Origin: Williamwhitmania sp.
Lineage (GTDB): Bacteria; Bacteroidota; Bacteroidia; Bacteroidales; Williamwhitmaniaceae
DNA: 39,835 bases
Assembly: GCA_035529935.1 (NCBI GenBank)
Contig: DATKVT010000065.1
Coordinates: 1-39,835 of the forward strand
Reading direction: 5' to 3'
Part shown: positions 14,129-33,525 of the stretch, in pieces
Numbering within the stretch: the stretch's first letter is position 1
How the letters are laid out: each line of letters starts with the position of its first letter
Made by a program: the position numbers and the translations under genes
The notes under the pieces: model-generated
Told to the model about the DNA's origin: nothing
What the model saw: only the letters and a program-made list of their open reading frames with translations
The model's database searches: none

Positions 14129-14133
14129 AGTTG

Positions 14134-14433: not shown

Positions 14434-14448
14434 AATTTTTTAACTACC

Positions 14449-14470
14449 TAGTTCGTTGTTTTGCGAACTA
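14449..14470 (+). promoter_or_regulatory. Second ArsR operator
   Basis: TAGTTCG (14449-14455) and CGAACTA (14464-14470) form an inverted repeat with the same GTTCG-N8-CGAAC spacing as the site at 14111-14128. It lies between arsR and the thioredoxin-like gene. No clear -7 box overlaps it. Confidence 0.6.
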
Positions 14471-14486
14471 CGAAAAAAAAGGAGCC

Positions 14487-14726: not shown

Positions 14727-14830
14727 ATAACCTTGGGCATTTGGAGTGCATTGGTGGCTTCCATTGATGAAGTAATTTCTGGACCATTCAAGAGCAGTTT
14801 CTTTGCCCTAATTTTTAACCCAATTCCAAA

Positions 14831-15247: not shown

Positions 15248-15312
15248 ATTGGATATCCGCTATTAAAATTTTGATTTTCAGATTTATTAATCTTAAAATT
15301 CTCCAATAGCTC

Positions 15313-16023: not shown

Positions 16024-16053
16024 CCTTTGCCCCACATAAAATATTGTGTTGAA

Positions 16054-17558: not shown

Positions 17559-17601
17559 TTGTTTTTTAAAAAAAGTATTACATTTGTAAGCGAATACTTA
17601 C
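17559..17601 (+). promoter_or_regulatory. Promoter and palindromic operator of TetR regulator 1
   Basis: TTG at 17559-17561, a 17-bp spacer and TACATTTG at 17579-17586 form the promoter. GTAAG-N6-CTTAC (17586-17601) starts on the last G of the -7 box, 7 bp before the ATG. The same palindrome occurs at 18213, 30403 (one arm imperfect) and 31042. Confidence 0.72.
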
Positions 17602-17608
17602 ATACAAG

Positions 17609-18196
17609 ATGAAGCAATCAACCGAAGTACGACAGACCCAAATAAAGCGCGCTGTGCTTGACATTATCCATTCCGATGGGTTACGGAATGTGTCAACTCG
17701 AATGCTATCCCAAAGGATTGGTATAAGTGAGGCTACAATATTTAGACATTTTGCATCTAAGCAGGATATCATCCTTTCCATTATTAGCGATGTGCAAAAG
17801 GATTTTATCGGCTCCTTGCGCACCATTGCCAATTCTAACATTGAACCGGAGAAACGCTTGGAGATGTTTATTTCACAAACAGTTAAGTACCTTGTAGACA
17901 ACAGAGGCATCACCATGGTGCTTTTTTCTGGAGCGTTGAATAACAGCGACGCTGAGTTAAAAAGTAACCTACAGCAGATATTCAATAGCCAAAAAAACCT
18001 AGTAAGCAAAATATTTCTCGATGGCATTGCTATAGGCAAGTGGGACGATAGCATTCCTGTCGAGAATTTAGCCATGCTTTATATGGGGTTTCCTGTTTCG
18101 CTTAACATAGGTCTAATTCTAGGCGCTGGGGAATTTTGTGCTGAGAATATCTGCAGTCAGATGATGCAAATGTTGCAGAAAATTCTAACAAAATAA
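17609..18196 (+). CDS. TetR/AcrR-family repressor 1
   Basis: 195 residues. The N-terminal helix-turn-helix (about 8-55) has T-R-M-L-S-Q-R-I-G-I-S-E-A-T-I-F-R-H-F and K-Q-D-I-I-L, typical of TetR. The all-helical remainder is the ligand and dimer domain. It is more than half identical by eye along its full length to the regulator at 30433, with an almost identical recognition helix. Palindromes before and after the gene suggest it represses itself and the CDF/RND genes that follow. The inducer is unknown; a divalent metal or a pump substrate is plausible from context. Confidence 0.88.
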   Translation: MKQSTEVRQTQIKRAVLDIIHSDGLRNVSTRMLSQRIGISEATIFRHFASKQDIILSIISDVQKDFIGSLRTIANSNIEPEKRLEMFISQTVKYLVDNRGITMVLFSGALNNSDAELKSNLQQIFNSQKNLVSKIFLDGIAIGKWDDSIPVENLAMLYMGFPVSLNIGLILGAGEFCAENICSQMMQMLQKILTK

Positions 18197-18212
18197 TTCT
18201 TTTATCGTTGAT

Positions 18213-18228
18213 GTAAGTAATCACTTAC
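18213..18228 (+). promoter_or_regulatory. TetR operator ahead of the CDF transporter
   Basis: GTAAGTAATCACTTAC, a 16-bp palindrome with the same GTAAG-N6-CTTAC spacing as the site before tetR 1, 54 bp before the CDF start codon. An imperfect -7 (TACTATTG, 18226-18233) overlaps its right edge. Confidence 0.65.
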
Positions 18229-18281
18229 TATTGTATTTCAAAATGCTTAACTATTTTCACTTTAAGTAAAATCCTACGACT

Positions 18282-19184
18282 ATGGAATCAAACGAAAAGC
18301 ACCATCACCATCACGATGTAAGCGGCAAAAACCTTGGAATAACCATTGCGCTTAACATAGTGATAGCTGCTGTTGAAGCGGCTGGCGGGTTTATTTCGGG
18401 TAGCATGGCGCTGCTTAGCGATGCAACTCACAACTTCAGCGATGTGATTTCGTTGTTGGTGAGCTATATGGCTAACCGGCTTGCCAAGCGAGATGCAAGC
18501 CAAGCACAAACTTTCGGTTACAGACGCTCCGAGATATTTGCTGCATTTTTGAACTCTGCTACCTTGATTGTACTTGCCATTTTTATACTGGTGGAAGCAG
18601 TGAAACGGTTAATAATCCCAGCACCAATTTCCGCCGATTGGGTAATTTATCTTTCGCTGCTCAGCATTCTTGTTAATGGTGCCAGCGTTCTATTTATTAA
18701 GGGAGATACAGAGGATAATCTCAATATGAAATCGGCCTACCTGCACCTCTTCAGCGACATGCTTACCTCTATTGCTGTATTGGCAGGAGGTTTGGCCATG
18801 AAATACCTTCAGTGGTTTTGGGTCGACTCAGTTTTCTCTATTACAATTGCCATATACCTACTTTATCTCAGCTGGAATATTTTTAAAACTTCACTGAAGA
18901 TGCTGATGCAGTTTACCCCACCTGGAATCAACTTGGAGCAAATTGTGTTGCAATTGGAGCAAATTTCCGGCGTGAAGAATATTCACCATGTCCACGTCTG
19001 GCAGCTCAGTGAGCACGAGATTATGTTTGAGGCGCATGTTGACTTACGAAATGATATATCAATTAGTGGATTCGAGAAGATCTTAGCTGTAATTCAGAAA
19101 ACCCTATTCGGATTTGAAATAACTCATTGCACTATTCAGCCGGAGTTTGGGGTTGAGGACAGTAAGCATATAATTCACAACTAG
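18282..19184 (+). CDS. Cation diffusion facilitator, Zn(II)-type exporter (CzcD/ZitB-like)
   Basis: 300 residues with six membrane helices and a C-terminal cytoplasmic domain. H50-N-F-S-D54 in helix 2 and H-L-F-S-D in helix 5 give the HD-HD quartet usual for zinc-selective CDF proteins. A cytoplasmic run of five histidines at 7-11 precedes helix 1, and the tail has H-H-V-H-V-W and F-E-A-H-V, the regulatory metal-binding domain. It exports Zn(II) and possibly Cd(II) or Co(II) into the periplasm in exchange for protons. It follows the palindromic operator after tetR 1 and precedes an RND pump that could carry ions onward across the outer membrane. Confidence 0.92.
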   Translation: MESNEKHHHHHDVSGKNLGITIALNIVIAAVEAAGGFISGSMALLSDATHNFSDVISLLVSYMANRLAKRDASQAQTFGYRRSEIFAAFLNSATLIVLAIFILVEAVKRLIIPAPISADWVIYLSLLSILVNGASVLFIKGDTEDNLNMKSAYLHLFSDMLTSIAVLAGGLAMKYLQWFWVDSVFSITIAIYLLYLSWNIFKTSLKMLMQFTPPGINLEQIVLQLEQISGVKNIHHVHVWQLSEHEIMFEAHVDLRNDISISGFEKILAVIQKTLFGFEITHCTIQPEFGVEDSKHIIHN

Positions 19185-19214
19185 CATTAATTGTTTTACT
19201 TAAACCTAGAAAAG

Positions 19215-19343
19215 ATGAATAATTTGAAGGATTGGCTAATGGAAGTCGAAAACGCCGATACAAAAATGGCGAGTTCGCTACACACACTCTCTCAACTGAA
19301 TTTCAGCAACTATGTATTGTTTCATACAAGGGAAATCAGTTAA
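19215..19343 (+). CDS. Possible 42-residue small protein
   Basis: A 42-codon frame begins MNNLKDWLMEVENADTK and ends F-H-T-R-E-I-S, with a normal ATG and a stop just before the strong ribosome site of the next gene. It is amphipathic with no membrane segment, metal motif or recognised family. It fills the gap between the CDF and TolC genes on the same strand. It could be a real small operon gene or chance; there is no other support. Confidence 0.35.
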   Translation: MNNLKDWLMEVENADTKMASSLHTLSQLNFSNYVLFHTREIS

Positions 19344-19346
19344 ACT

Positions 19347-19353
19347 AAGGAGG
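19347..19353 (+). promoter_or_regulatory. Strong Shine-Dalgarno site for the RND operon
   Basis: AAGGAGG lies 7 nt before the ATG at 19361. Equivalent strong sites precede the next two genes (GAGGAGG at 20627-20633, AAGGAGG at 21679-21685). Most other genes in this window lack such sites. Confidence 0.75.
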
Positions 19354-19360
19354 AACAACC

Positions 19361-20644
19361 ATGTTTAAAAATGTACTCATTTTTCTATGCTTTCCCATGG
19401 TGTTGCATGCCCAAGACGTGCAGCACATAGCTCAGCTCTTCGATTCGCTCAAAACGCACCCAGCAACACAGGGTGATGAGATACGGATTGAACAGGCCCT
19501 TGCAGGGAAAACAATGGCTTACAGCAAGCTATACCCAAACATTAACCTCTTCGGGAGGTACGATTACGCATCATCTGCCACGGCCATGTTGCCGTTACCG
19601 CTAAATGAACTTTTTGCCTATAAGGCTGATCCAACCAAGGCTCAACCCTTTAGCGAAAACATCTACAGGGTTGGAGCGACGATTTCCATGCCCATTTTTG
19701 TAGCATCCATCTTTCCCATGGCTGCCAAGGCGAAAATGATGGCACGTTCCGCCAAGGACTTGAAAAACATCAATCTACTAAAAAACGAGGCGGTCATTGT
19801 TGGCGCCAACGCTAACCTGTTGTACATGCAGGCCTTGGATTCGGCATTGACGAAAAAAAGGAACTCCCTGCTAAAAACAAAGGAGTTTGTGGTCATCAAA
19901 ACCAACAACGGACGTGCCCCTGAATCGGCGCTCCTGAACATAAACAACGGGATCAGCCAGATCGATATCATGAAAAACGACCTAGCATTGCAACGCGATG
20001 AGGTGGTAGCCGTTATCCAATCGCTGACGGGCGTTGCCTTAAATAGCCCGGTAACTATGGAGCAGGTTGGCACCTATAAAGATGGGAATATTAAAGCGCT
20101 TGATCCGTTACGTGAAAAAGCGGAAGCCGACCGGTTAGGATACAGGGCCGAAAAAGAAAAACTTTTGCCATCCCTAGTGCTGCAAGGCAGCTATAGCAAC
20201 AATACGGCAAAATCGTACAATAATAATCAGCGTGTAAACAACGATTATACTGCCGTTGGGATCGTTTTACGAATCCCCCTGTTTGCCAAAGACCAGTATG
20301 CCCAAATAAAAAAGAGCAGGCTGGATTATGAAGCATCTAAGAACGACCTCGACCGAATGAGTCTGGAACTCTCGTCGCAGGCATCGCAGTTGCAAAGTAG
20401 CTTGCTGCTGCTTGATAATTCCATTCTACTGTACAAAACTAGCATCAAGGACAAGGAACAACTTTTAGGGATAGCGAAGGTCAGTTACCAGTCCGACCGA
20501 TTGTCTATGGAAGATTACCTTAAATATGAGGACGATCTCGTCCTTGAACAATCGAAGCTGTTTAAGGCCCAAGCCCAGAAATGGCAAACACTGATGAAAC
20601 TTAACGTAATTTATGGAAATAATATTGAGGAGGTAGTGAAATGA
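19361..20644 (+). CDS. TolC-family outer-membrane channel of the second RND pump
   Basis: 427 residues with a signal peptide ending near L-H-A-Q, then two repeats of long amphipathic helices and short barrel strands typical of outer-membrane efflux proteins. It forms the exit duct for the adaptor and permease that follow. The stop overlaps the next start (ATGA at 20641-20644), so translation is probably coupled. Strong ribosome site. It is clearly distinct from the copper-operon TolC protein and lacks its Gly/Ser/Met insertion. Confidence 0.86.
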   Translation: MFKNVLIFLCFPMVLHAQDVQHIAQLFDSLKTHPATQGDEIRIEQALAGKTMAYSKLYPNINLFGRYDYASSATAMLPLPLNELFAYKADPTKAQPFSENIYRVGATISMPIFVASIFPMAAKAKMMARSAKDLKNINLLKNEAVIVGANANLLYMQALDSALTKKRNSLLKTKEFVVIKTNNGRAPESALLNINNGISQIDIMKNDLALQRDEVVAVIQSLTGVALNSPVTMEQVGTYKDGNIKALDPLREKAEADRLGYRAEKEKLLPSLVLQGSYSNNTAKSYNNNQRVNNDYTAVGIVLRIPLFAKDQYAQIKKSRLDYEASKNDLDRMSLELSSQASQLQSSLLLLDNSILLYKTSIKDKEQLLGIAKVSYQSDRLSMEDYLKYEDDLVLEQSKLFKAQAQKWQTLMKLNVIYGNNIEEVVK

Positions 20645-21690
20645 AAAAGAAAACGATAATCACCGTTGTCATAGTTGTTTTAATATTGGCAGGCGGTATT
20701 TTGGCCGTAAAAAGAGCCGAAAAGAGAGATGCTTCAGCACCCGTTGCAAAAACGTATGCCATGGTGGTATCCACCATGAAACCGGAACTGAAGGAAGTAA
20801 CCCTTACCTTGCCCTACCTAGCTCTTGTTCAAAATGACGAAGATGTGGTGGTGGCATCCAAAATAGCAGCCCGTATCGAGTCTTTAAAGCCAAGCGGCAC
20901 CGATGTATCCAAAGGTACTGTCATTGTAAGGCTCGATAATACCAGTATCGAAAGTGGGGTACAAAGTATCAAAGCCCAGATTTCTGCTGCTAGTACTGGT
21001 CTTAAAAACCTTCAGGCCACGCATAAGCGGACGCTCGAACTCCTGGCAGTGAAAGGTGCATCTATTGAGCAATCCGAAATGGAAGAGAGTAAAATTGCCG
21101 AAACGGAAGCGAAGATCGAAGCGTTGAACCAAAGCCTGAACGATATCAGAAACACCCAGTCTTACGCAACTATTACTGCACCTGTATCCGGCATAATTTC
21201 AAAAACAATGCTTAACGTTGGTGATATGGCTATGCCAGGTATGCCCATCGCCATTATCAGCTCCAACCGCGGCGCATACCTGAAACTTAGTGTACCGGCC
21301 GATCTGAAAGTTTATGGTGCAACCATCAATGGACAAAGCTATGATGCAATTGCGCTCAATAGCACTTTTAACAGCCTCGCAGAGTATAAAATCCAGGTAA
21401 AGAACCTTAACCTGATGACAGGCGAACGCGTGGAAGTAAATGTGATAGTGTACAACGGCAAAGCAGTGAAGCTACCCTTCGATGCTATTTTAAACCGAAA
21501 TGGTAAGAGTTACGTGTTTGTTAAAAACAACGATAAGGCCGTGGCCACTGAGGTTTCTATCATCCAATCCGGCGAAGATGGCGCTGTGATAAGCAATAAC
21601 GATCTTGCCGGGAAAGAAGTGGTGGTTGAAAAACAGGATATCCTGCTAAAACTTCTTTCAGGCGTTGCACTAAAAAGCAAGGAGGAATAA
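20641..21690 (+). CDS. RND periplasmic adaptor (membrane fusion protein)
   Basis: 349 residues: one N-terminal membrane anchor (about 5-23), a coiled-coil hairpin (about 105-165), flanking lipoyl-like halves with A-S-K-I-A-A-R-I and I-T-A-P-V-S-G-I-I-S, then beta-barrel and membrane-proximal domains. There is no heavy-metal-binding or DUF3347 domain, unlike the CusB protein in this window. It bridges the permease and the TolC channel. It overlaps the upstream gene by 4 bp and is 3 bp from the permease gene. Confidence 0.88.
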   Translation: MKKKTIITVVIVVLILAGGILAVKRAEKRDASAPVAKTYAMVVSTMKPELKEVTLTLPYLALVQNDEDVVVASKIAARIESLKPSGTDVSKGTVIVRLDNTSIESGVQSIKAQISAASTGLKNLQATHKRTLELLAVKGASIEQSEMEESKIAETEAKIEALNQSLNDIRNTQSYATITAPVSGIISKTMLNVGDMAMPGMPIAIISSNRGAYLKLSVPADLKVYGATINGQSYDAIALNSTFNSLAEYKIQVKNLNLMTGERVEVNVIVYNGKAVKLPFDAILNRNGKSYVFVKNNDKAVATEVSIIQSGEDGAVISNNDLAGKEVVVEKQDILLKLLSGVALKSKEE

Positions 21691-21693
21691 GCC

Positions 21694-24600
21694 ATGTTTG
21701 ATTATTTCTACAAGCGGCCATATCTGCTATATTCGCTGATATTTGCCTTCTTTATCATGGGGGTGATGGCGCTCGTCACACTGCCCAAAAATCTGTTCCC
21801 CGATTCTACCCCGCCCCAAGTCATTGTGATTACAAAGGTACCAGGAGCAACTGCACAGGTAGCTGCCAATACGGTTTCAAAACCGATTGAGCAGGAGATT
21901 GCCCGCTTAGGTTTGTTAACCGAGGTTAGCTCGGTGAACGTGGCCAACTTCTCTATCGTGAAGGCTGAGTTCAAGTATGAAAAAGGTCTCGATGCAGCAG
22001 CCGTTGACGTGGCCAACGCCCTTTCCATTGCCAAAGGAAACCTTCCGGCTGATGCCAATCCTGCCATCTATACCGCAGGAGACTTTACGCTACCGGTCGA
22101 TGTGATTTCAGTTTCACCCAAAACTGACAGCGTAAACCTGGGCGACATCCGCAAAATGGTGGATGGCTTTATAAAACCATACCTGTTAAGCAATCCTGAT
22201 ATCGGGAATGTGGAAGTATTTGGGGGCTATGAAAGTTCAATCAATATTGAAGTAGACCCGTTCAAGGCTAAACGCTTCAATGTCGATTTCGATAAAATAG
22301 CCATGGCACTCAAGGTGCTTAACCGCGATATGCCCATTGGGTTCGTAAAAGGAGCCAATAACTTCTACACCATTACTTTTTATGGCGAAAAAGACGAAAT
22401 AGAAAAATTGAAGCAAATTACGATTCTTCCCAATGTAAGGTTAAGTGATGTGGCCAATGTGGAATGGGGTTATAAAAAACGCACCAGCGGATATATTGGT
22501 AACGGAAAGCCTGCTATTGCATTAGCCATTCAGCGTACTCCTGGCGGCAGCGTTTTAAGCGTGAGCAACGCAGCTAGGGCTGAGATGAAGAACCTGCAGG
22601 CGAAATATCCGAACTTTAATTTTGAGATTTCCGATACACAGCGCAACCTGATTCAGCTTGCTAACAATAACATGCTGATTGCCCTTCGCGATGCTATTTT
22701 TTATACGTTGATCGTTATCCTGTTTTTCATTGGAAATTTCAGGGCCATTGCCGCGGCCGCCATCACCATTCCCATGGTTTTCTTTTCAACAATGGCGGTT
22801 ATCTGGCTTACCGGCGGAAGCCTTAACATAGTAATCTATACAGCAATCATCCTTGCCTTGGGGCTGCTAACCGATAACGCGGTGGTGGTGCTCGAAAATA
22901 TTGAACGGCACCTGAATGAGCTGAAGGAAGATTTACAAACAGCCATCCAAAAGGGGACTAAAGAAGTTGTTGGGCCAATATGGTCGGGAACCATTGCTAC
23001 CATTGCCATTGTAGCCCCACTGATGTTTGTTGGCGGATTTCCCGAAAAAATCTTTAAACCATTGATATTTACCTTAATCATTGCGTTGCTGGTCTCGTTT
23101 TTTCTTTCCATTACATTCATTCCCAAACTTTTGGAAATGTTTTATAAAAACGGACACAACAAGAACAAAGTTGAGAAATGGTTCGACCGTTTGTACGAAA
23201 AGTCCGTTGGCCGCTTGGTAGAACCTTACGTGGGCGTCATCCGGTTTTCGAATGGTAAACGTAAAGTTCTGCGCCGTGTGTTGCTTTCGGTGGGAGTATT
23301 GCTGCTGTTGCTGGTGAGTGTTAAAACAATTATGCCTACCATCGGCAAGGATGCCATGCCACCCATGGATACGGGCATTATTAAAGCACAAATACAATTT
23401 AGTTCCAACGAAACAACGAATAGCGCCGAAAAAAAACTGGAACCATTTATAGCCTGGCTGCACAAGCAACCGTGGGCTAACATGAGTTCCGTTGCTTTTG
23501 GGAATGAAATGGGCGTGTTGAGCCTCGGGAGCGGCAACTTACCTTCCGAAGCTACCATTACCGTGAATTGCGTGGACCGTTTCCACCGCAAGATGAACAT
23601 GTGGCAGATTGAAAAAATTATGCGCGATACGCTGTCACACCTGGAAGGCATCAAGAAAAACGACGTATACGATTTTGGCGCCACCGCTCTTTCCACCATC
23701 AAGGCAACGCTCGATGTCAGGATTAAATCGCCATACGTGGACGGTTTGGCCGAAAAGTCACAGGAAGTGAAAGATGCTTTGGCCAATGTAAAAGGATTAA
23801 CTTCTGTCTCCACGAGCTGGGACAAGGACTTCACTGAGATTGCCCTGAACATTGACGAGAACAAGGCGCTGAGCTATGGCATCACACCGTATGAAATTGC
23901 CATGCAGATTCTGGCAAAGGGCCAGGTAGTGGGGCTGAATGCCAACTTGCAGTCGCTCAACACACAGCCTGTTACCCTTTACTTCAAGGGTAAATTTGGC
24001 GAGAACGAGCAGACGCTAAGGCTTTTGCCAATTCATACCGCTATGGGCGAAGTTCCGCTCGAACAACTGGCCAAAATTTCGAAAAACCTGACGTTTGCCA
24101 AGATCGAACGCGACAAAATGATGTACAGTATCGATGTCAACGGCTACCGGTCCAATAGGCCCGTGTCGCATATCACAGCCGATGCCGAAGCAGCACTTAA
24201 AAATGTGAAAAGCAACAACGATGTGGTTATTTCGCAGGAAGGAGATATTGCCCAGATTAACGACAGCTTTCATCGCATGATCAAAGCCATCGCGCTGGGG
24301 ATTTTCATCCTAACCATGGTGCTTATTTCCATCTACCGGTCAGTGAAACTATCCCTCATTATGATTCTGGTATTGCCGCTTTCAATGATCGGTGCGGCTT
24401 GGGGAATGCTCTTGTTCCATAAGCCAAGCTGCATGCCAAGTTTGCTGGGGATACTGCTGCTGTTTGGTATCATCATTAAAAATGCGGTACTGCTCATCGA
24501 TTTCTACCAAAAGCACAGAGACAGTGGTGAATCGCCTTACGATAGCGCTATTGAAAGCGTACGGGTGCGTTTCCGTCCAGTAATGATGACTGCCTTTGGA

Positions 24601-24807
24601 ACAATTGCCGGAATGATCCCTATTGCGCTAGAACAGGCAGTTGGTCTTGAACGCTTAAGCCCGTTGGCCGATGTGGCTATTGGTGGGTTACTTGTAGGTA
24701 CACTGTTAACCCTAATATTTGTGCCAATGTTCGCCTACATCGTAGATACAAAAAAGGAGAAGATAAAACTAGCAAGTAATGAAGATGGTAGGACAGCAAT
24801 AGAGTAG
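21694..24807 (+). CDS. RND efflux permease
   Basis: 1037 residues, the usual size of a tripartite RND pump: membrane helix 1 at about 10-30, periplasmic porter loop, helices 2-6 with G-L-L-T-D-N-A-V-V-V-L-E-N carrying the helix-4 aspartate, a second loop, then helices 7-12 with G-I-I-I-K-N-A-V-L-L-I-D-F. It lacks the three CusA methionines, so it is closer to drug or general pumps than to Cu/Ag pumps. Where AcrB has two aspartates in helix 4, this protein has D-N. The substrate is unknown; location behind a zinc-type CDF and shared TetR control suggest a metal or a compound that accompanies metal stress. Confidence 0.88.
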   Translation: MFDYFYKRPYLLYSLIFAFFIMGVMALVTLPKNLFPDSTPPQVIVITKVPGATAQVAANTVSKPIEQEIARLGLLTEVSSVNVANFSIVKAEFKYEKGLDAAAVDVANALSIAKGNLPADANPAIYTAGDFTLPVDVISVSPKTDSVNLGDIRKMVDGFIKPYLLSNPDIGNVEVFGGYESSINIEVDPFKAKRFNVDFDKIAMALKVLNRDMPIGFVKGANNFYTITFYGEKDEIEKLKQITILPNVRLSDVANVEWGYKKRTSGYIGNGKPAIALAIQRTPGGSVLSVSNAARAEMKNLQAKYPNFNFEISDTQRNLIQLANNNMLIALRDAIFYTLIVILFFIGNFRAIAAAAITIPMVFFSTMAVIWLTGGSLNIVIYTAIILALGLLTDNAVVVLENIERHLNELKEDLQTAIQKGTKEVVGPIWSGTIATIAIVAPLMFVGGFPEKIFKPLIFTLIIALLVSFFLSITFIPKLLEMFYKNGHNKNKVEKWFDRLYEKSVGRLVEPYVGVIRFSNGKRKVLRRVLLSVGVLLLLLVSVKTIMPTIGKDAMPPMDTGIIKAQIQFSSNETTNSAEKKLEPFIAWLHKQPWANMSSVAFGNEMGVLSLGSGNLPSEATITVNCVDRFHRKMNMWQIEKIMRDTLSHLEGIKKNDVYDFGATALSTIKATLDVRIKSPYVDGLAEKSQEVKDALANVKGLTSVSTSWDKDFTEIALNIDENKALSYGITPYEIAMQILAKGQVVGLNANLQSLNTQPVTLYFKGKFGENEQTLRLLPIHTAMGEVPLEQLAKISKNLTFAKIERDKMMYSIDVNGYRSNRPVSHITADAEAALKNVKSNNDVVISQEGDIAQINDSFHRMIKAIALGIFILTMVLISIYRSVKLSLIMILVLPLSMIGAAWGMLLFHKPSCMPSLLGILLLFGIIIKNAVLLIDFYQKHRDSGESPYDSAIESVRVRFRPVMMTAFGTIAGMIPIALEQAVGLERLSPLADVAIGGLLVGTLLTLIFVPMFAYIVDTKKEKIKLASNEDGRTAIE

Positions 24808-24881
24808 ATTTACTGCAACTCTTCAAAAATAGAAGGCTATCTAAAATGAAATTGCGGTAATATTGAATAACCTCTACACAT

Positions 24882-24914
24882 AGAAAAGAGTAGCCTTTTG
24901 TGCTACTCTTTTCT
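24882..24914 (+). terminator. Hairpin terminator after the RND operon
   Basis: AGAAAAGAGTAGC (24882-24894) pairs perfectly with GCTACTCTTTTCT (24902-24914) around a 7-nt loop. The downstream arm is T-rich and so is the opposite strand, so it could end transcription in either direction. No long T run follows. Confidence 0.65.
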
Positions 24915-25002
24915 TATAGAAATACGATCTAATCATTACCACACTTTACGGTGATTAGAATTCCTGCAATTATTTATGATTATTGACTCTAACGTGAGAA
25001 AG

Positions 25003-26391
25003 ATGAGACGGTATTTTTTGATAACTCTAATATTATTGATTGGTGGTAGAATTACGTATGGCCAGTCTTTAAAAGGCGAAAATGGCGAGTTGGTAGTTAA
25101 TCGCCTGATGGATTCCTTGTGGATTCATCCCACCAGCTTTATCAACCATAACGATCCAAACTGGATCAGGCTAAACCAACATTTGCGATACATAGATATC
25201 TTAAAACTAAACGGTATAATACATTCTATTTTTTTTGATGATAACTCCTTTATACTTAATCGATCTCATGCTCATGAGGGATTTATTGGGCTGCTAAATA
25301 AATCGTTAAGCGATGGTAGATTAAAATCTTTTCACAAGGCAATTAGAAATGGATTTCGCGATTCAAAGCAACATCCAAACAACAAAATTGTAATGATTGA
25401 AGGGGATTCCTGGTTCGGTTATCCCATTTTTCTTAGCGACATTTCTGACCATTTGCGAAAGAAGAGCAACCTAGCATTGTACACCATGACAAGCGCTGGT
25501 GATTGGATCTCTAACATGATTTCAAGTCTGCAGTACGAGTATACCTACGTCAAAATAAAGCCCGATGTTTTTATTGTTAGTGGAGGGGGAAACGACATGG
25601 TTGGAGATTATCGTTTGTCGAACTTCGTTCAACGTTATCCTATTTCAACTGATGAACCGTTTTTGAACAGCTATCGTAATTACGTCATATTAAGATTGAT
25701 GAAAAAGCCAGTCAATATTTGCAGTTCAGAAAACTGCGATATTAACTATGCATTTTATAAAGATTCACTGGGGATATATAAGACTCAAGTAGACACAGCA
25801 TTGCTAGAACAGATTGTAACGGGAAGAAGGTATCTTAATAAGAATTTCTACAGATTTGTTGCCACCCTGAAGATAGAGTATAAAATGCTCTTTGAATCGC
25901 TCAAAAAAATTTCGCCGTCACAGTTCGATTCTCTAAAAATAATTACACAAGGGTATGATTACGTAGTACCAAGTTATAAAAAACAGTTTGGAATAAACAA
26001 TGGGGCCTATTTGAAAGAACCGCTCATGTTAAATGGTATAAATGACCCATATATAGAAGAGTCAATTATGAAAACAATCATATTTGAAATTAATGAAATG
26101 TTGATAGAGTTAGGTAAAGAATATAGCAATATATATCATGTAGATTCTCGTGGAATTACAGCATTTTACGAAAAATATCACAAGAAAAAGCCGAGCAGTT
26201 GTTGGCACGATGAGCTACATCCTAAATCGGTTATATTTGGCATAATTTCCGATACCTACTACGATGTAATTGAGAATAATATTCTATCAAAGCAGAAAGT
26301 TATTAGCGTTGTAGATACATACAGGGAAAAGGAGATGGTGAAAAACAGGAACAAAAAAGGGCATAAGCACTCAAAACAAAAATCACAATAA
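25003..26391 (+). CDS. Exported SGNH/GDSL-type hydrolase
   Basis: 462 residues from the ATG at 25003, giving a standard signal peptide ending near T-Y-G-Q; an ATG at 24976 adds nine residues. SGNH blocks are present: E-G-D-S-W-F (nucleophile S136), V-S-G-G-G-N-D-M (block III) and W-H-D-E-L-H-P (the Asp and His of the catalytic triad). Enzymes of this fold are esterases, lipases or sugar deacetylases. The C-terminus is Lys/His-rich and basic. It is flanked by non-coding sequence on both sides and is more AT-rich than its neighbours. The substrate is unknown. Confidence 0.75.
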   Translation: MRRYFLITLILLIGGRITYGQSLKGENGELVVNRLMDSLWIHPTSFINHNDPNWIRLNQHLRYIDILKLNGIIHSIFFDDNSFILNRSHAHEGFIGLLNKSLSDGRLKSFHKAIRNGFRDSKQHPNNKIVMIEGDSWFGYPIFLSDISDHLRKKSNLALYTMTSAGDWISNMISSLQYEYTYVKIKPDVFIVSGGGNDMVGDYRLSNFVQRYPISTDEPFLNSYRNYVILRLMKKPVNICSSENCDINYAFYKDSLGIYKTQVDTALLEQIVTGRRYLNKNFYRFVATLKIEYKMLFESLKKISPSQFDSLKIITQGYDYVVPSYKKQFGINNGAYLKEPLMLNGINDPYIEESIMKTIIFEINEMLIELGKEYSNIYHVDSRGITAFYEKYHKKKPSSCWHDELHPKSVIFGIISDTYYDVIENNILSKQKVISVVDTYREKEMVKNRNKKGHKHSKQKSQ

Positions 26392-26555
26392 TCGCAACAA
26401 TGCAAAAGGAAGCTTACGGTTTTCAAAATTGTGTTGCTGAATGAATTTGGTATACAAAAATTTCAAGAATGGCAAGGTTTTTAGATGTCATCCCAAAAAG
26501 TGTGTAAAGTGAGGTTTTTTCTAAATTTAGGTTGCAACACTTTTAAATTTAGGAT

Positions 26556-26785
26556 ATGAAAAACCTACGTTTTATAAAAGAGCAAGTTTCGAAGGTTTTG
26601 GAAGAAATAGCCCTTCGCTACGGAATGCTTAAGCAACTGGAATTGGGGCTTTTTTTATTGCATATTTATTTACCTTGAAGCCAACAATGGCAAGGGCTAT
26701 AAAGGATTTAGAACTTAGCCACAAGGAACAGGACTTACTCAATGATGCCAATGCAGTAATCGCCGAAATAATGGTTGGAAGGTAA
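26556..26785 (+). pseudogene. Broken reading frame of unknown family
   Basis: A frame starting MKNLRFIKEQVSKVLEEI stops after 40 codons at 26676-26678. An overlapping frame, offset by one base, continues as K-P-T-M-A-R-A-I-K-D-L-E-L and ends at 26783-26785. Together they look like one small helical protein split by a frameshift. Upstream (26490-26512) lies CCAAAAAGTGTGTAAAG, which resembles the end of some insertion sequences, so an IS remnant is possible. Family not recognised. Confidence 0.35.
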
Positions 26786-26825
26786 ACCGTTGAAACGGTT
26801 TTCAGATTCCAACACCCATTTATAA

Positions 26826-26845
26826 CCCACGGTTAAAACTGTGGG
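26826..26845. repeat. REP-like hairpin
   Basis: CCCAC and GTGGG enclose GTT/AAC around an A-rich loop. Similar hairpins are common between Bacteroidota genes. It opens the repeat-rich gap between the SGNH gene and mgtA (26786-27292), for which I see no coding content. Confidence 0.55.
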
Positions 26846-26990
26846 CTATGTAGGTTCTTGGGTTGTTCATTGGGCGAAAAGCATTTCGCCCATACAGTTG
26901 ATGAAATTCTTTTAATTCCTCTAAACCCGCGTTGCGGGATCTCCGCTTCGCTACGGCTTCATTAACTTCCTTTATCAACTTATTGTGATT

Positions 26991-27040
26991 GCGGTGCAGG
27001 GCAACTGTGGTGAATTGAACAGCAATTGTGCGTGCACCGC
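26991..27040. repeat. Interspersed palindromic repeat, copy 1
   Basis: GCGGTGCA (26991-26998) is the exact reverse complement of TGCACCGC (27033-27040). The left flank TGTGATTGC and the right-hand GCGTGC recur at 38634-38690 in a diverged copy. Confidence 0.55.
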
Positions 27041-27062
27041 TCGCGCTTGGTATGTTTCATTT

Positions 27063-27108
27063 CCGGGGTTTCCCCCCCGGCTACAAACATGCAACCCCTC
27101 TGGGGTTG
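27063..27108. repeat. Two adjacent GC-rich hairpins
   Basis: CCGGGG (27063-27068) pairs with CCCCGG (27075-27080). CAACCCC (27092-27098) pairs with GGGGTTG (27102-27108) around TCT. They are likely REP-type elements or decayed terminators; nothing codes here. Confidence 0.55.
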
Positions 27109-27148
27109 GGCTATAGAACGAATTTTTTTTGTCCCTACATTGGTTGAA

Positions 27149-27198
27149 TTCCTCTAACTTCCTCTAACTTCCTCTAACTTCCTCTAACTTCCTCTAAC
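27149..27198. repeat. Five tandem copies of a 10-bp repeat
   Basis: TTCCTCTAAC is repeated five times without error, then continues as degenerate units (CCCGTATAACT, CCCGTTTAACT, TCTGAATAACT) to about 27240. It lies about 90 bp before the mgtA promoter box. Copy number could vary between strains. Confidence 0.9.
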
Positions 27199-27292
27199 TC
27201 CCGTATAACTCCCGTTTAACTTCTGAATAACTTCCGAATCTTTTAACCTTTTTTAAGTAACCAAACAGCAGCACCATATTGTAAAATTAGCC

Positions 27293-27432
27293 TACTTTTG
27301 CCTTGCAAATTAATTCTCACTTCTTATGGACGATGGCCCTTTTAGTAGAAAGAATGCAGTAACAACCACGCATCAATAGGGGGTGAGTAGCGGTTTGCCT
27401 CTCTTTTTGGTGCATTAATAGAGGCATTACCA
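27293..27432 (+). promoter_or_regulatory. mgtA promoter box and leader with short ORF and hairpin
   Basis: TACTTTTG (27293-27300) matches TAnnTTTG, so transcription probably starts near 27307 and leaves a leader of about 125 nt. The leader holds a 17-codon frame starting MDDGPFSRK (27326-27379) and a hairpin, GCCTCT (27397-27402) with AGAGGC (27420-27425), extended by GGT/ACC next to the ATG at 27433. Leader peptides and structured leaders control mgtA in enterobacteria. A similar role here is inference from layout only. Confidence 0.4.
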
Positions 27433-30120
27433 ATGATTAAAGTTGCAAAGAAAATTGGCTCCACCTTTTCCAACGCAGGCGGGCTAAACCAGGGGGCTAC
27501 TGTGCGGTTACGGCAGGCAGCTCAGCTTTCCACTACACATCTCTATGACTTTCTTGAGACCAAACCGGAGGGATTAACTGCCGAGGAGGTTGAGCTAAGG
27601 CAGGAACAGTATGGGCAAAACGATGTGAGGCACGATAGACCTCCAACGTGGTACCGACAGCTGCTCGACGCCTTTATCAATCCCTTTGTGGGCATTCTAG
27701 TGCTCATTGCAGTTGTTTCGTTCATTATTGATGTGTGGCTGGCCCCACCTGAAGAGAAAGAGTATAAAACGGTGGTGGTGGTCTCCATTATGGTGCTCAT
27801 TAGTTCCATGCTCCGCTTTGTGCAGGAGTTCAAGAGTAGTCGGGCTGCGGAACGGTTGAAAAGCATGGTAAAAACCACCGCTACGGTGCATCGCCAGCCT
27901 ACCAGTCGGCAGGAGGTGGAGATTGGCGAGCTGGTCCCTGGTGACATCATATTCCTCTCCGCCGGCGATATGATTCCGGCCGATTGCCGTATTCTCCAGT
28001 CGAAAGACCTCTTTATAAACCAGTCGGTGCTTACCGGTGAAGCGTTACCTGTGGAAAAGCGAGACCATCCGGTGGATGAGGCCAACAGGATGTCGACCTT
28101 GGAACTCACGAACCTCTGCTTCATGGGAACCAATGTGGAGAGTGGAACGGCCACGGCAATTGTTGTGAATAAGGGCAACCTTACCTACTTTGGCAGCATT
28201 ACAAGCACCTTGTCGGGCAAGCGTGCCGAAACCAGTTTCGACAAGGGGATAAAGAAGATTAGCTGGTTGCTCATCCGCTTTATGGTGGTGATGGTGCCGC
28301 TCATCTTTCTCATCAACGGCTTAGTTAAGGGAAACTGGTTCGATGCGCTGCTATTTGCCATTGCGGTGGCCGTGGGCTTAACGCCCGAAATGCTTCCCAT
28401 GATTGTTACAGCAAACCTTGCCAAGGGAGCCGTGAACATGAGCAAGCGTAAGGTGATTGTGAAGCGCCTCAACGCTATTCAAAATCTGGGCGCCATGAAT
28501 GTGCTCTGCACCGACAAGACAGGAACCCTTACCCTCGATAAAATTGTGCTGGAGCGCCACCTGAACGTGATGGGCTACGACGACCATGAGGTGCTGAAAT
28601 GGGCCTACCTTAACAGCTATCACCAAACGGGTCTCAAAAGCTTGCTCGATATGGCAATTCTGCAGCACGTGGAGCTTCACGATACCATGGTGGAGGAGCG
28701 CTACGAAAAGGTGGATGAGATACCATTCGACTTTATGCGGCGGCGTCTCTCCGTTATTCTTCGGCAGAGCAACGGAAAGCACCTGCTCATCTGTAAGGGA
28801 GCCGTGGAGGAGATGCTGGATATGTGCAGCCTTGTGTACGACCCCGGCGACGATAACCAGCTGCAAATTGCCTCCGACGAGGTTGTTCCTCTCGAAGATG
28901 AAATTCGGGATGGGGTTCTTCGGCAGGCCAAAAAGCTCAACGAGGATGGTATGCGGGTTCTCCTGATTGCCGTTAAGTTTTTTGATGACCGTGAGTTGAA
29001 CTACTCGGTAGCCGATGAGAAAGATATGCTTCTTATTGGTCTTATTGGGTTTCTTGACCCTGCTAAACCCACTGCGAAAGATGCCATTGAGTCGCTGCAC
29101 GAGCTTGGAGTGGAGGTAAAGGTGCTCACCGGTGATAACGAGATTGTAACCGGTAAAATTTGCCGGGAGGTGGGCATACCCGTTAGCACCATCATGCTGG
29201 GTAGCGAACTGGAGCAGCTCACCGACAGCGCATTGCGGGATCGCATCAACGACATTAGCATATTCGCCAAGCTGAGCCCAGACCAGAAAATTAGGGTGGT
29301 ACAGAACCTACAAGCCATTGGGCATACCGTTGGCTTTATGGGCGATGGCATAAACGATGCGGGAGCACTCCGCGTGGCCGACGTAGGCATTTCGGTGGAT
29401 ACAGCCACCGACATCTCCAAGGAGAGTGCCGACATCATTTTATTGGAAAAGGATCTTACCGTTCTTCGGAAGGGAATTGTATACGGTAGGCGCACCTTTG
29501 GAAATATTCTGAAGTATATCAAAATGACCGCCAGCAGCAACTTTGGTAACATGTTTAGCATGCTTGGCGCCAGCATCTTTCTACCATTCCTACCCATGCT
29601 ACCGGCCCAGCTACTTATGCAGAACTTGCTTTACGATATGTCCCAAATCGCCATACCGCTCGATACAGTCGACAAGGAGTACATCGATAGGCCAAGGAAG
29701 TGGGACACCTCCGGGATAACCCGGTTTATTCTCTACATCGGGCCCATCAGCTCCATTTTCGACTACGCCACCTTTGCCCTGATGTTTTTCTTCTTCAAGG
29801 CCTCTTCACCTGAGCATCAAAGCCTTTTTCAGAGCGGATGGTTTGTGGAAGGACTGCTCTCCCAAACGCTCATTGTGCATCTAATTCGCACCCGTAGGGT
29901 TCCCTTCTTCCAGAGCTGGGCCACCCCTCCGGTAATTCTGCTTACACTGCTCATTATGACCATTGGCATTGCAATTCCCATGATGCCCTGGGCGGGAGCA
30001 ATGGGACTTCAACCTCTTCCACCACTTTACTTCCTCTTTTTGTTGGTTATACTGGTATCGTATGCCCTGCTAACGCAGGTTGTTAAGGGGTGGTTTATTC
30101 GGAAATTCCACGACTTTTAG
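27433..30120 (+). CDS. mgtA: MgtA-type magnesium-importing P-type ATPase
   Basis: 895 residues, normal for P3B ATPases. Cytoplasmic N-terminus; actuator domain with L-T-G-E-A-L-P-V-E; phosphorylation motif C-T-D361-K-T-G-T-L-T; nucleotide domain with L-L-I-C-K-G-A-V-E-E-M; hinge V-L-T-G-D-N and M-G-D-G-I-N-D-A-G-A-L; C-terminal helices with N-L-L-Y-D-M-S-Q-I-A-I-P typical of Mg-ATPases. It uses ATP to bring Mg(II) into the cytoplasm. It is transcribed alone behind its own promoter box and leader. Other divalent ions such as Ni(II) can be carried by some relatives. Confidence 0.92.
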   Translation: MIKVAKKIGSTFSNAGGLNQGATVRLRQAAQLSTTHLYDFLETKPEGLTAEEVELRQEQYGQNDVRHDRPPTWYRQLLDAFINPFVGILVLIAVVSFIIDVWLAPPEEKEYKTVVVVSIMVLISSMLRFVQEFKSSRAAERLKSMVKTTATVHRQPTSRQEVEIGELVPGDIIFLSAGDMIPADCRILQSKDLFINQSVLTGEALPVEKRDHPVDEANRMSTLELTNLCFMGTNVESGTATAIVVNKGNLTYFGSITSTLSGKRAETSFDKGIKKISWLLIRFMVVMVPLIFLINGLVKGNWFDALLFAIAVAVGLTPEMLPMIVTANLAKGAVNMSKRKVIVKRLNAIQNLGAMNVLCTDKTGTLTLDKIVLERHLNVMGYDDHEVLKWAYLNSYHQTGLKSLLDMAILQHVELHDTMVEERYEKVDEIPFDFMRRRLSVILRQSNGKHLLICKGAVEEMLDMCSLVYDPGDDNQLQIASDEVVPLEDEIRDGVLRQAKKLNEDGMRVLLIAVKFFDDRELNYSVADEKDMLLIGLIGFLDPAKPTAKDAIESLHELGVEVKVLTGDNEIVTGKICREVGIPVSTIMLGSELEQLTDSALRDRINDISIFAKLSPDQKIRVVQNLQAIGHTVGFMGDGINDAGALRVADVGISVDTATDISKESADIILLEKDLTVLRKGIVYGRRTFGNILKYIKMTASSNFGNMFSMLGASIFLPFLPMLPAQLLMQNLLYDMSQIAIPLDTVDKEYIDRPRKWDTSGITRFILYIGPISSIFDYATFALMFFFFKASSPEHQSLFQSGWFVEGLLSQTLIVHLIRTRRVPFFQSWATPPVILLTLLIMTIGIAIPMMPWAGAMGLQPLPPLYFLFLLVILVSYALLTQVVKGWFIRKFHDF

Positions 30121-30395
30121 GGAGTACTCAGCAAAGGATTGGAGCTAGCCAAGCGGTTGTTAAGCTAGTCAAGTAGCAGTTACTTATGCACGGAATAGGG
30201 TAGATGGCAGCGACTATCAGAAATAGTATGTCTCAGTTTTTTGGCATGTATGTTAAACACTCAGTGTTCAATAGATTTTTATCGACTAAATTGTAATTAT
30301 TTGTATTACAGTAGAATAATGATTATTATCCTAGATATGAATTAGTATTTTTGAAAAAAAATTACTTTTTTCTTGCTTTTTGGTAGATGATATAC
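30121..30395. other. Intergenic gap with nothing recognised
   Basis: Between mgtA and the tetR 2 promoter the sequence is AT-rich in its second half. I find no open frame, strong hairpin or repeat. Near 30136-30172 there is a weak GCTAG-containing repeat that does not form a convincing terminator. Confidence 0.6.
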
Positions 30396-30418
30396 TATAT
30401 TTGTAAGTAAATGATTAC
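30396..30418 (+). promoter_or_regulatory. Promoter box and operator of TetR regulator 2
   Basis: TATATTTG (30396-30403) matches the -7 consensus, with TTG at 30373-30375 twenty bases upstream. GTAAG-N6-ATTAC (30403-30418) begins on the last G of that box, the same geometry as at 17586-17601. One arm differs by one base from the other three copies. Confidence 0.7.
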
Positions 30419-30432
30419 ATTCATATCTTAAA

Positions 30433-31023
30433 ATGGAACGACAGAACACAGACGTAAGGCAGGAGCAGATAAAGCAAGCGGTGCTGGACATTATCTACAC
30501 CGACGGGCTTAAGAACTTATCCACGCGGAATCTGGCAAAGCGTATAGGCCTTAGCGAGGGGGCCATTTTTCGGCATTTCTCCACCAAGCAGGATATCATC
30601 CTCTCCATTATTGGCGATGTTCAAAGCGATTTTATAGGCGAGCTTCGGCGGATTGCCACCTCCGAGATTGCCCCGGCCGAGCGGTTGGAGAAGTTTATTT
30701 GCGCTACCATTCGTTACCTTGTCAAGAATAAGGGTATTACAATGTTGCTCTTTTCGGAGGCCTCGCACAACAACGACGCGGAGCTGAAGAGCAGCTTGCA
30801 GCAAATCTTTAATAATCAGAAACAGCTGGTTAGCAAAATTATTCTGGATGGCATTGCTGCTGGGCTGTGGGATGAAGGCATACCCGTTGAGAACGTCGCC
30901 ATGCTTTACATGGGAATACCGATATCGCTCAACATTGAGATGATTTTGGGCGGTGGGGTATTCCATGAGGATAACTTTTGCTCGCGAATGCTGATGCTGT
31001 TGCTTAAGGTGCTTAGGAAGTAA
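30433..31023 (+). CDS. TetR/AcrR-family repressor 2
   Basis: 196 residues, aligned end to end with the regulator at 17609 without internal gaps and more than half identical by eye. Its recognition region S-E-G-A-I-F-R-H-F-S-T-K-Q-D-I-I-L-S-I-I is nearly the same, so both probably read the same GTAAG palindrome. Differences concentrate in the ligand domain (S-E-A-S-H-N here, S-G-A-L-N-N there). It is followed by a perfect palindrome and a permease-porin-FmdE-flavoprotein run it likely controls. Codon use is more GC-rich than in regulator 1, so the duplication is not recent. Confidence 0.88.
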   Translation: MERQNTDVRQEQIKQAVLDIIYTDGLKNLSTRNLAKRIGLSEGAIFRHFSTKQDIILSIIGDVQSDFIGELRRIATSEIAPAERLEKFICATIRYLVKNKGITMLLFSEASHNNDAELKSSLQQIFNNQKQLVSKIILDGIAAGLWDEGIPVENVAMLYMGIPISLNIEMILGGGVFHEDNFCSRMLMLLLKVLRK

Positions 31024-31041
31024 TTTTTTTTTGAACAAATA

Positions 31042-31057
31042 GTAAGTAATTACTTAC
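31042..31057 (+). promoter_or_regulatory. TetR operator ahead of the TSUP operon
   Basis: GTAAGTAATTACTTAC is a perfect 16-bp palindrome, 14 bp before the TSUP start codon. It is the best of the four GTAAG-N6-CTTAC sites and should be the strongest binding site. Confidence 0.72.
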
Positions 31058-31071
31058 ATAAATTTAGCGTT

Positions 31072-31824
31072 ATGGTTTATGGAGTTGTTTTTTTCATAAT
31101 CGCCGTTGCCTCCTTCGTTTTTGCCATGCTAGGGTTGGGAGGAGGAATGGTGTATGTGCCGGTATTGAACTGGGCCGGGTTCGACATGGTTTCTGTCGCA
31201 ATCCCCTTGGGCTTATTGCTTAATGGTTTAAACACGGCACTGGTACTCATCCCTTTTGCCCGCAAGAAGATGGTGGACTGGAAGGGAGGTGCAGTGATGG
31301 CTGCTACCGCGCTAATCGCCTCACCGCTAGGCGCAATGGCAAGCGTGCACATGCCGGTAAAGACTCTTAAAATTCTTTTTGCCGTCATGGTGGTAGCTGC
31401 TGCACTACGGACGCTTTGGATTTCAGCAAGTGCGGAACCCGATGCTATGCTGTCGCTTCGCAAGCGTAGCACGATCGGTTTTTTTGTTGGCTCATTTGCG
31501 GGTTTTATTGGTGGAATGCTGGGCATCGGTGGTGGCTTTATTATTGCTCCAATTCTTATGATGATGGGGTATAAGACTAAGGAGGCCGCTGCTACCACTG
31601 CTTTCGTTGTAACGTTTTCCTCTCTGTCGGGTTACCTCGGGCATGTGTCGCAGGGACACATGAACTGGTGGCTTACGGCAATTGTGGTGGTGGCAGTTAT
31701 CATTGGCTCCCAGCTGGGAGGATCGTATATGACCAAAAAGGCAAAGTCGAAGCAGGTGAAGATTGCCTATGCGGTGGTACTGCTGCTTATTGCTACTAAA
31801 ATGATTTATGGTGTAATTGCTTAG
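31072..31824 (+). CDS. TSUP (TauE/SafE) family membrane permease
   Basis: 250 residues with about eight membrane helices in two repeats. Each repeat starts with a glycine-rich motif: L-G-L-G-G-G-M-V-Y-V-P near 20 and L-G-I-G-G-G-F-I-I-A-P near 155, the hallmark of TSUP transporters. Members export or import sulfur-containing anions (sulfite, sulfoacetate, thiosulfate) or other small organic anions. It is the first gene after the perfect TetR operator and 2 bp before the porin gene. The ion carried is unknown; the redox and Cys-rich partners downstream make a sulfur compound plausible. Confidence 0.85.
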   Translation: MVYGVVFFIIAVASFVFAMLGLGGGMVYVPVLNWAGFDMVSVAIPLGLLLNGLNTALVLIPFARKKMVDWKGGAVMAATALIASPLGAMASVHMPVKTLKILFAVMVVAAALRTLWISASAEPDAMLSLRKRSTIGFFVGSFAGFIGGMLGIGGGFIIAPILMMMGYKTKEAAATTAFVVTFSSLSGYLGHVSQGHMNWWLTAIVVVAVIIGSQLGGSYMTKKAKSKQVKIAYAVVLLLIATKMIYGVIA

Positions 31825-31826: not shown

Positions 31827-32831
31827 ATGAAAACAATATTGCTAGCGTTAATGGGGGTAATGACGATGTTTCTTGCCTCAACTACTGCCTACTCACAGGA
31901 GAAGGGCACAATGGAATGGAATGGATACATACAAACTCGGCTGAGCAGCAACTTTGATGAGTCAACCGAGTTTACCATCCGAAGGGCCAAGTTGTGGGTA
32001 AACGGTACCTTGCCCCAAGCCGACTATATTTCCTATAATGTTCAGCTGGTTTACCGGTCGTTTAGTGATGACGCGCTGATGTTTCAGGATGCCTACGCCA
32101 ACCTAAGGCTCGGAAGCTATGGGACTTTACGTGCAGGACGCTTTGTTCCTGACTTTATGCTTGAGCGTAGTCAGCCAGACTATAAGATTCCAGTATTGGA
32201 GAGGGCCGATGTTGTCAATGGCTTAATTCACAACTCAAAGCAGATGGCCCGCGAAATTGGGGCGCAGTATACATTTCAGAGCGATGCATCACCGCTACAC
32301 TTCAGCTTGGGTGTATATAATGCCAACGTAGATAAGCCAGAGCATAGCAAGGATAATTCGTTGCTTGTGACTTCCAGAGCCTCGGTGAAGGTATTTAATG
32401 CTGATAAAAGTTGGCTAACCCTTGGTGCGTCTGCTGCTTATAGGCATCTGGACAATATTGGTCTCCCAACCATTTACAAGGCCGACAGCCTTCTTTCGGG
32501 AGAGGATTTCCGCTGGGGGTTTGAAGCCCTGCTGCACTTGAATAGCCTTGAATTACAGGGCGAATTTGTTCAGGCGAACATCAATAGCGACATCGCAAAT
32601 GGTTACTATGGCTTACTTACTTGGTCGTTTGCCCGCAAGTACCAATCGGTTGTCTTTACCGAAAAGTACGATGACCTCAACCCTGCTACTAGTAACAATG
32701 CATGGTATGGCCTGGGATTCAATTATCAAATTTCAGGGAAGACCAAGCTGATGGCCGATTTCAAGGGGAGGACCGTGATGGGACGCAGCGTGAACGGTGG
32801 TGATATCCAGCTGCAGGTATTTTTCAACTAA
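31827..32831 (+). CDS. Outer-membrane porin (phosphate-selective porin O/P-like)
   Basis: 334 residues: a signal peptide ending near A-Y-S-Q, then alternating beta strands with aromatic girdles, R-R-A-K-L-W-V-N-G and Y-A-N-L-R-L in the early strands, G-R-F-V-P-D-F-M-L-E, and a final strand ending in F-F-N. This is the pattern of the OprO/OprP-type family, common in Bacteroidota. It would let small anions cross the outer membrane, matching an inner-membrane TSUP permease two bases upstream. Specificity cannot be read from sequence. Confidence 0.82.
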   Translation: MKTILLALMGVMTMFLASTTAYSQEKGTMEWNGYIQTRLSSNFDESTEFTIRRAKLWVNGTLPQADYISYNVQLVYRSFSDDALMFQDAYANLRLGSYGTLRAGRFVPDFMLERSQPDYKIPVLERADVVNGLIHNSKQMAREIGAQYTFQSDASPLHFSLGVYNANVDKPEHSKDNSLLVTSRASVKVFNADKSWLTLGASAAYRHLDNIGLPTIYKADSLLSGEDFRWGFEALLHLNSLELQGEFVQANINSDIANGYYGLLTWSFARKYQSVVFTEKYDDLNPATSNNAWYGLGFNYQISGKTKLMADFKGRTVMGRSVNGGDIQLQVFFN

Positions 32832-32922: not shown

Positions 32923-33525
32923 ATGATTAATCCAAAAGATTGGCTCGAATTCGGGCAAAAATTTCACGGACACAAATGCCCTGCTATGCCCATGGGCTTA
33001 AGGGTAGGTGCTGCCGCAATGAATGCATTGGGTGTTGAACGCGCCAAAGATGGTCAGCTGGTTGCTTTTGTTGACCTAGGCGAGGACCATTGTGCTACCT
33101 GCTACGGAGACGGTTTGCAGGTAATCCTCGGAACTACCTTTGGCAAGGGGAATATTAAGAAAACCCACAAGGGGAAGTGGGCTGTTACCGTTGTTGAGCG
33201 TGCCACCGGCAGGGCCGTAAGAGTAACACCAACTGCAGAAGCCATGCTTAACAATAAGAAGTCTTCTTTCTTTACTGACTACCGTATGGTTGGCAAGCCC
33301 GCTAGCACGGTGCCAGCCGAAGTTGTAGATCCTTTGGTTATCAGTGTAATGAGCGCACCCGATGAGAAGTTATTCTCCGTTTCACCCATTTTTGAATACA
33401 AGCTCGAACCTAAGAAGGACAGCTTCAATGGTTTTGTTTGTGAGGAGTGTGGAGAAATGACCGTTACCGAATATGGCCGCATTAAGGGCGATAAGAAGGT
33501 TTGCATCGATTGCCTAAACAAGTAA
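32923..33525 (+). CDS. FmdE-family protein with C-terminal zinc ribbon
   Basis: 200 residues. The N-terminal FmdE domain shows F-H-G-H17-K-C19-P-A and, further on, G-E-D-H56-C57-A-T-C60-Y-G-D-G, conserved Cys/His that bind a metal, probably zinc, in relatives. A C-terminal ribbon has C173-E-E-C176 and C194-I-D-C197. It is named after subunit E of formylmethanofuran dehydrogenase, but stand-alone members occur widely without methanogenesis genes and their function is unclear. No signal peptide, so cytoplasmic. It lies in the TetR 2 operon between the porin and the flavoprotein. Confidence 0.83.
   Translation: MINPKDWLEFGQKFHGHKCPAMPMGLRVGAAAMNALGVERAKDGQLVAFVDLGEDHCATCYGDGLQVILGTTFGKGNIKKTHKGKWAVTVVERATGRAVRVTPTAEAMLNNKKSSFFTDYRMVGKPASTVPAEVVDPLVISVMSAPDEKLFSVSPIFEYKLEPKKDSFNGFVCEECGEMTVTEYGRIKGDKKVCIDCLNK

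Follow-up and report, generated by a model that had tools for sequence, protein, structure and literature searches.

The 39,835-nt contig DATKVT010000065.1 of Williamwhitmania sp. (GCA_035529935.1; assembly of 4.04 Mb, 97.7% complete; a sediment-type member of the Bacteroidales) carries two paralogous tetR genes, each accompanied by palindromes and followed by export genes. The locus raises the question of whether the two repressors, here called TetR1 and TetR2, read one set of operators as a single regulon or whether each serves its own operon. We analyzed this whole stretch, called the window below, together with the rest of the genome and with homologous loci. Our preferred reading, to which we give a probability of about 0.6, is that the window holds two modules, each self-contained and autorepressed, which belong to one TetR family and whose repressors probably cross-bind, and that one of these repressors has an altered or lost sensor site.

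The two modules are laid out alike (Table 1). The initial annotation had placed one palindrome, GTAAG-N6-CTTAC, at four sites. Three of these, starting at 17586, 18213, and 31042, match it exactly; the fourth, GTAAGTAAATGATTAC at 30403, has one mismatch, its right arm reading ATTAC instead of CTTAC, a form common among homologues. The geometry described there was confirmed: in each module the first base of the upstream copy (O1) is the final G of a TAnnTTTG box (boxes at 17579 and 30396), and a further, exact copy (O2) lies just 3′ of each tetR gene. The O2 sites of the two modules are alike at 15 of 16 bases, and no locus-specific divergence between the operators of the two modules was seen. 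A promoter at O2 was considered and rejected, as neither the tetR1-CDF nor the tetR2-TSUP gap has an exact TAnnTTTG. The O1-O2 spacing is 627 and 639 bp in the window modules and 624 to 660 bp in the family; helical phasing of this spacing gave a Rayleigh p of 0.02 at 10.5 bp for sequences that are not independent and was not retained. No Rfam family or tRNA gene was matched in the window.

Table 1. Features of the two tetR modules in the window.
Feature	Coordinates	Strand	Remarks
TAnnTTTG (−7) box, tetR1 promoter	17579..17586	+	TACATTTG
Operator O1, module 1	17586..17601	+	GTAAGCGAATACTTAC; exact GTAAG-N6-CTTAC
tetR1	17609..18196	+	TetR_N repressor, 195 aa; AF2 pLDDT 88
Operator O2, module 1	18213..18228	+	GTAAGTAATCACTTAC; exact; between tetR1 and CDF
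CDF cation efflux protein	18282..19184	+	Pfam PF01545, TIGR01297
TolC-type outer-membrane efflux protein	19361..20644	+	Pfam OEP
RND periplasmic adaptor	20641..21690	+	TIGR01730
RND permease	21694..24807	+	PF00873
TAnnTTTG (−7) box, tetR2 promoter	30396..30403	+	TATATTTG
Operator O1, module 2	30403..30418	+	GTAAGTAAATGATTAC; one mismatch to GTAAG-N6-CTTAC
tetR2	30433..31023	+	TetR_N repressor, 196 aa; AF2 pLDDT 91
Operator O2, module 2	31042..31057	+	GTAAGTAATTACTTAC; perfect 16-bp palindrome; between tetR2 and TSUP
TSUP (TauE/SafE-type) transporter	31072..31824	+	PF01925
Porin_O_P-type outer-membrane porin	31827..32831	+	PF07396
FmdE-domain protein, C4 zinc-finger-like tail	32923..33525	+	PF02663; weak PF01258 match
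Pyridine-nucleotide disulphide oxidoreductase (dihydrolipoyl dehydrogenase/MerA-like)	33749..35149	+	

The genome-wide search that the initial annotation had proposed returned nine exact matches in the whole 4.04-Mb assembly and eight for the reversed control, so the overall frequency of the pattern is at background. Three of the nine fall in the ~400 bp flanking both tetR genes, where the rate elsewhere in the genome (six exact sites in 4.0 Mb) predicts ~0.0006 (p ~4e-11); the palindromes beside the tetR genes are not there by chance. None of the six others was kept as an operator: four are internal to long ORFs, one resembles a terminator hairpin, and the last lacks a convincing operator context. 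The family consensus GYAAGYRHNYRHTTRC picked out the four window sites and six further matches, all of which are in coding sequence (long ORFs) and were rejected. Since only four non-coding consensus sites occur in the genome, the predicted regulon consists of the two window operons, as seen with a strict motif in a 97.7% complete assembly.

Homologues were collected from 84,980 species genomes at 79 loci, of which about 65 are close relatives (41 to 80% identity), mostly from Bacteroidota and also from Ignavibacteriota, Chlorobiota, and Elusimicrobiota. The palindrome precedes 51 of 64 homologous genes and follows 41 of 66, compared with 1.3 and 1.8 expected from dinucleotide shuffles; the predicted double operator, at the promoter and just after tetR, is a trait of the family. 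Alignment of the sites yielded approximately the consensus TTTG-YAAG-YRANTA-CTTAC. In most of the 56 upstream sites aligned, the TAnnTTTG box keeps a fixed register before O1; it is missing before O2. Homologues with only ~50% protein identity still carry the same operator. Because it is conserved at identities far below that of the window pair, both TetRs probably bind all four sites; for the same reason, common descent alone would give shared operators. Between the tetR stop codon and O2, many homologues conserve a T-run that directly follows the stop (window 18196-18212 and 31023-31041; e.g., TAATTTTTTT); lying 5′ rather than 3′ of the palindrome, it does not form a standard terminator.

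Both proteins match the TetR HTH model (PF00440) at 35.5 and 37.2 bits, above the cut-off of 24, and their AF2 models show a confident all-helical TetR fold whose Foldseek and VIA matches are TetR proteins, with Z up to 20. The palindrome at each gene's own promoter, as a predicted operator, agrees at the sequence level with what is expected of the TetR family. Over their full length, TetR1 and TetR2 share 67% identity. They had been described as having almost identical recognition helices and differing ligand domains, a contrast that the alignment contradicts: 37 of 55 HTH-domain residues, 8 of 13 residues around the recognition helix, and 93 of 140 C-terminal-domain residues are identical, so divergence is even along the chain.

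Among solved structures the best relative is SlmA (E 4e-21), which is also the best NCBIfam match for both TetRs, with equivalog scores of 65.0 and 66.3 bits against a cut-off of 120. SlmA is a nucleoid occlusion factor of TetR fold that binds FtsZ and recognizes the 12-bp site GTGAGTACTCAC (PMC3116907). Its half-site GTRAGT resembles that of the family operator, but the SlmA site spans 12 bp rather than 16 bp and occurs at ~50 places chromosome-wide, whereas here four non-coding sites stand beside their own genes, and the present TetRs, unlike SlmA, are linked to efflux genes. The score and the lack of a 12-bp, many-copy site speak against these proteins being SlmA. A related palindrome, AAGTGAGTAATCACTT, with half-sites nearer to the SlmA site, was observed ~58 bp upstream of the TetR gene in three TetR-MFP-RND runs of Desulfofundulus and Desulfovirgula (Bacillota), whose TetRs are 30% identical. 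FadR of the Bacillus type and KstR2-type regulators share the fold of the present TetRs (Z 18-20, TM ~0.75) at ~20% identity, and the FadR equivalog scores are 48.7 and 49.9 bits against a cut-off of 200. These regulators are ligand-induced repressors with acyl-CoA-type ligands, to which no relation of the conserved Cys/Glu/His set described below was found. SczA and ComR are TetR-type regulators of metal export found beside CDF or metal transport genes; they resemble the present TetRs in family and gene neighborhood, and metal sensing here is putative. In the autoregulated TetR/TetA and AcrR/AcrAB systems, the repressor operator overlaps the promoter of repressor and pump genes. The window differs in that tetR and target are co-oriented with a second operator between them, and in that two paralogous repressors with one operator type occur at one locus.

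The targets in the window are split, with CDF-TolC-MFP-RND behind TetR1 and TSUP-porin-FmdE behind TetR2; membership of the oxidoreductase gene in the TSUP operon is uncertain, as a 224-bp gap precedes it. The RND permease scores better on HAE1-type than on CzcA/CusA models, all scores being below the curated cut-offs. Downstream of the family tetR genes, TSUP is present at 34 of 65 loci, FmdE at 28, and the porin at 23, with CDF or RND parts rarer. Five loci carry TetR-TSUP-CDF-FmdE as one run, another has TetR-x-TSUP-FmdE-TolC-MFP-RND, and in a genome of the same order TSUP-porin-CDF-FmdE stands behind one TetR. The target sets that are split in the window thus form one operon in relatives, which supports two operons serving one export function. 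The earlier proposal of one regulon gains indirect support from these one-operon relatives, from the likeness of the operators, and from the four sites being the sole non-coding matches to the consensus.

Five further loci have FmdE-TSUP-porin-FmdE, with two different FmdE genes behind one family TetR. Structures of FmdE proteins are known (PMC2954224). In the literature library searched, no paper combined FmdE, TetR, and TauE, and no regulatory link among them was found. Judged by eye, the window constitutes a region of metal(loid) resistance, with a CusA/B/C-like efflux set at 5425-14065, an ArsR-thioredoxin-like-CcdA-permease run at 14131-17067, and ArsR-rhodanese-ArsC-ACR3 at 35366-38159. 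Arsenic genes (ArsR, ArsC, ACR3) also lie near the tetR modules in some relatives. Between the arsC-like and ACR3-like genes, a small ORF (36648-37031) encodes what we take to resemble a four-helix bundle (S23-type) protein. Proposing Zn, Cd, Cu, or sulfite as the signal is guesswork based on the gene neighbors.

In the 65-member alignment (TetR2 numbering), C90, E109, N167, and C183 are near-invariant, position 169 is Glu in 55 members, and position 112 is mostly His or Tyr. The conserved thiol, carboxylate, and imidazole residues of the ligand domain are C90, E109, H/Y112, E169, and C183, and we infer that the C90/E109/H112/E169 set is a candidate sensor site. TetR2 keeps all the conserved C-domain residues (C90, E109, H112, N167, E169, and C183). 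TetR1 carries C90S, E109G, H112N, and E169G, and S90, G109, and G169 are found in it alone among the 65 members; these altered residues suggest a different or weaker response. It retains C183 and the invariant HTH core IFRHF, and its rare HTH changes N33M, A35S, G43A, and A44T mean that its DNA affinity could differ. Across the family, recognition-helix variants (A44/T44) showed no pattern by eye with the operator spacer, and covariation of the two was discarded. Altogether 12 near-invariant positions are altered in TetR1 and none in TetR2. The count of 12 ties for the family maximum, with TetR1 much nearer the family consensus than the other high scorers; in the C-domain, 7 of 42 near-invariant columns are lost, which is high and not the family's highest. 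We therefore rejected the number of losses as proof of sensor loss, and the argument turns on the kind of residues lost. Of the two-sensor claim, what survives is the loss of conserved residues in TetR1 only, not an overall divergence of the ligand domains; cross-repression with different inducers, as first envisaged, is hypothetical here. TetR1 also has a Cys at position 178 (His in TetR2), five residues before the invariant C183; C90 is lost, and the thiol pair may have shifted position.

Among 46 relative genomes, most have one such TetR gene and seven have two. The pair in G484 (84.5% identical) has one O1 sequence and one O2 sequence in common, and the pair in G473 (57.7%) has a common O1 sequence. 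The second paralogue in G465, G493, G495, and G496 is 44 to 50% identical and has no good palindrome copy nearby; G474, with its second copy cut off, was left out of this comparison. Moderately close pairs therefore share the predicted operator repeatedly and distant pairs do not, and these four genomes indicate that sharing is not the rule for all pairs. In two of them (G493 and G495) a distance of ~12 kb separates the paralogous TetRs, which lie around TSUP-porin-FmdE or TolC-MFP-RND genes. As to origin, strong family matches occur in 10 of 393 genomes of the order, and the only other genus genome searched has neither TetR, nor the FmdE gene, nor a close CDF relative. In the tree, TetR2 falls among TSUP-linked genes from Prolixibacter and other taxa. 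A sister relationship of TetR1 and TetR2 was not rejected (AU p 0.31; TetR1 with the homologue L140, p 0.45), and the branch of TetR1 is longer than that of TetR2 (0.46 versus 0.24).

In our preferred reading of two cross-binding modules, the window would contain two copies of one unit, consisting of a promoter overlapping O1, tetR, O2, and an export operon. Bound at O1, which begins within the −7 box and spans the likely start site, a TetR dimer or pair of dimers would keep tetR and its downstream genes from being transcribed. O2 would act as a second block, as a roadblock or through a loop, before the target genes, and the pump genes would be held more tightly than the repressor gene. Both TetRs would probably bind all four sites, as expected for the same operator type in one cell, and the CDF/RND and TSUP-porin-FmdE operons would behave as one export regulon. 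TetR2 keeps the family's conserved Cys/Glu/His set, the putative sensor; for TetR1, with most of the set lost, a different inducer or a weak or absent response would be expected.

The main competing explanation, which we regard as possible though somewhat unlikely, is that each module was acquired or duplicated as a package, with its repressor acting mainly on its own operon, the palindrome merely inherited, and any cross-binding incidental and unselected. Sharing needs no selection when homologues in other genomes at ~50% identity use the same operator, the patchy occurrence of the family and its absence from the other genus genome point to mobile, self-contained modules, and the two TetRs need not be sisters. 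However, near-identical operators in one cell make cross-binding hard to avoid, no compensating operator divergence is visible, and the target genes concerned form one operon elsewhere. In a variant of the shared-regulon reading that we advance only tentatively and consider improbable, TetR1 would be a sensor-blind paralogue kept by selection, binding the same four operators as an inducible TetR2 and setting a floor or threshold on the shared regulon.

The changes in TetR1 could also reflect a repressor decaying under relaxed selection, with TetR2 in practice controlling the CDF/RND operon. The 12 near-invariant departures in a protein otherwise near the family consensus and the longer branch would fit, but the reading frame is intact, the predicted fold is confident, both module 1 operators are exact, and the IFRHF core and C183 are retained, and we hold this to be quite unlikely. 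It seems very improbable that the palindromes act as RNA hairpins or as terminators of transcription instead of protein operators. Although they are perfect inverted repeats adjoining genes, and one exact site elsewhere in the genome looks like a terminator, O1 sits on a promoter box ahead of the transcript body, the conserved T-run at O2 precedes the palindrome, and the arms are short and A+T-rich, with the same bases conserved across homologues.

These analyses define, from sequence alone, a TetR family of Bacteroidota and neighboring phyla that appears to be undescribed and whose operator is predicted to control metal- and sulfur-linked export genes. With the family come a predicted operator, a constant arrangement of two operators, a conserved candidate sensor site, and recurrent targets (TSUP, FmdE, porin, CDF, and RND), and uncharacterized FmdE and TSUP genes are thereby placed in a regulatory context that can be tested. 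The TetR1/TetR2 pair offers a natural test of how duplicated repressors with one operator either avoid cross-talk or exploit it. Were TetR1 indeed sensor-blind, responsive and unresponsive repressors of one operator type would together tune a metal- or thiol-stress response.
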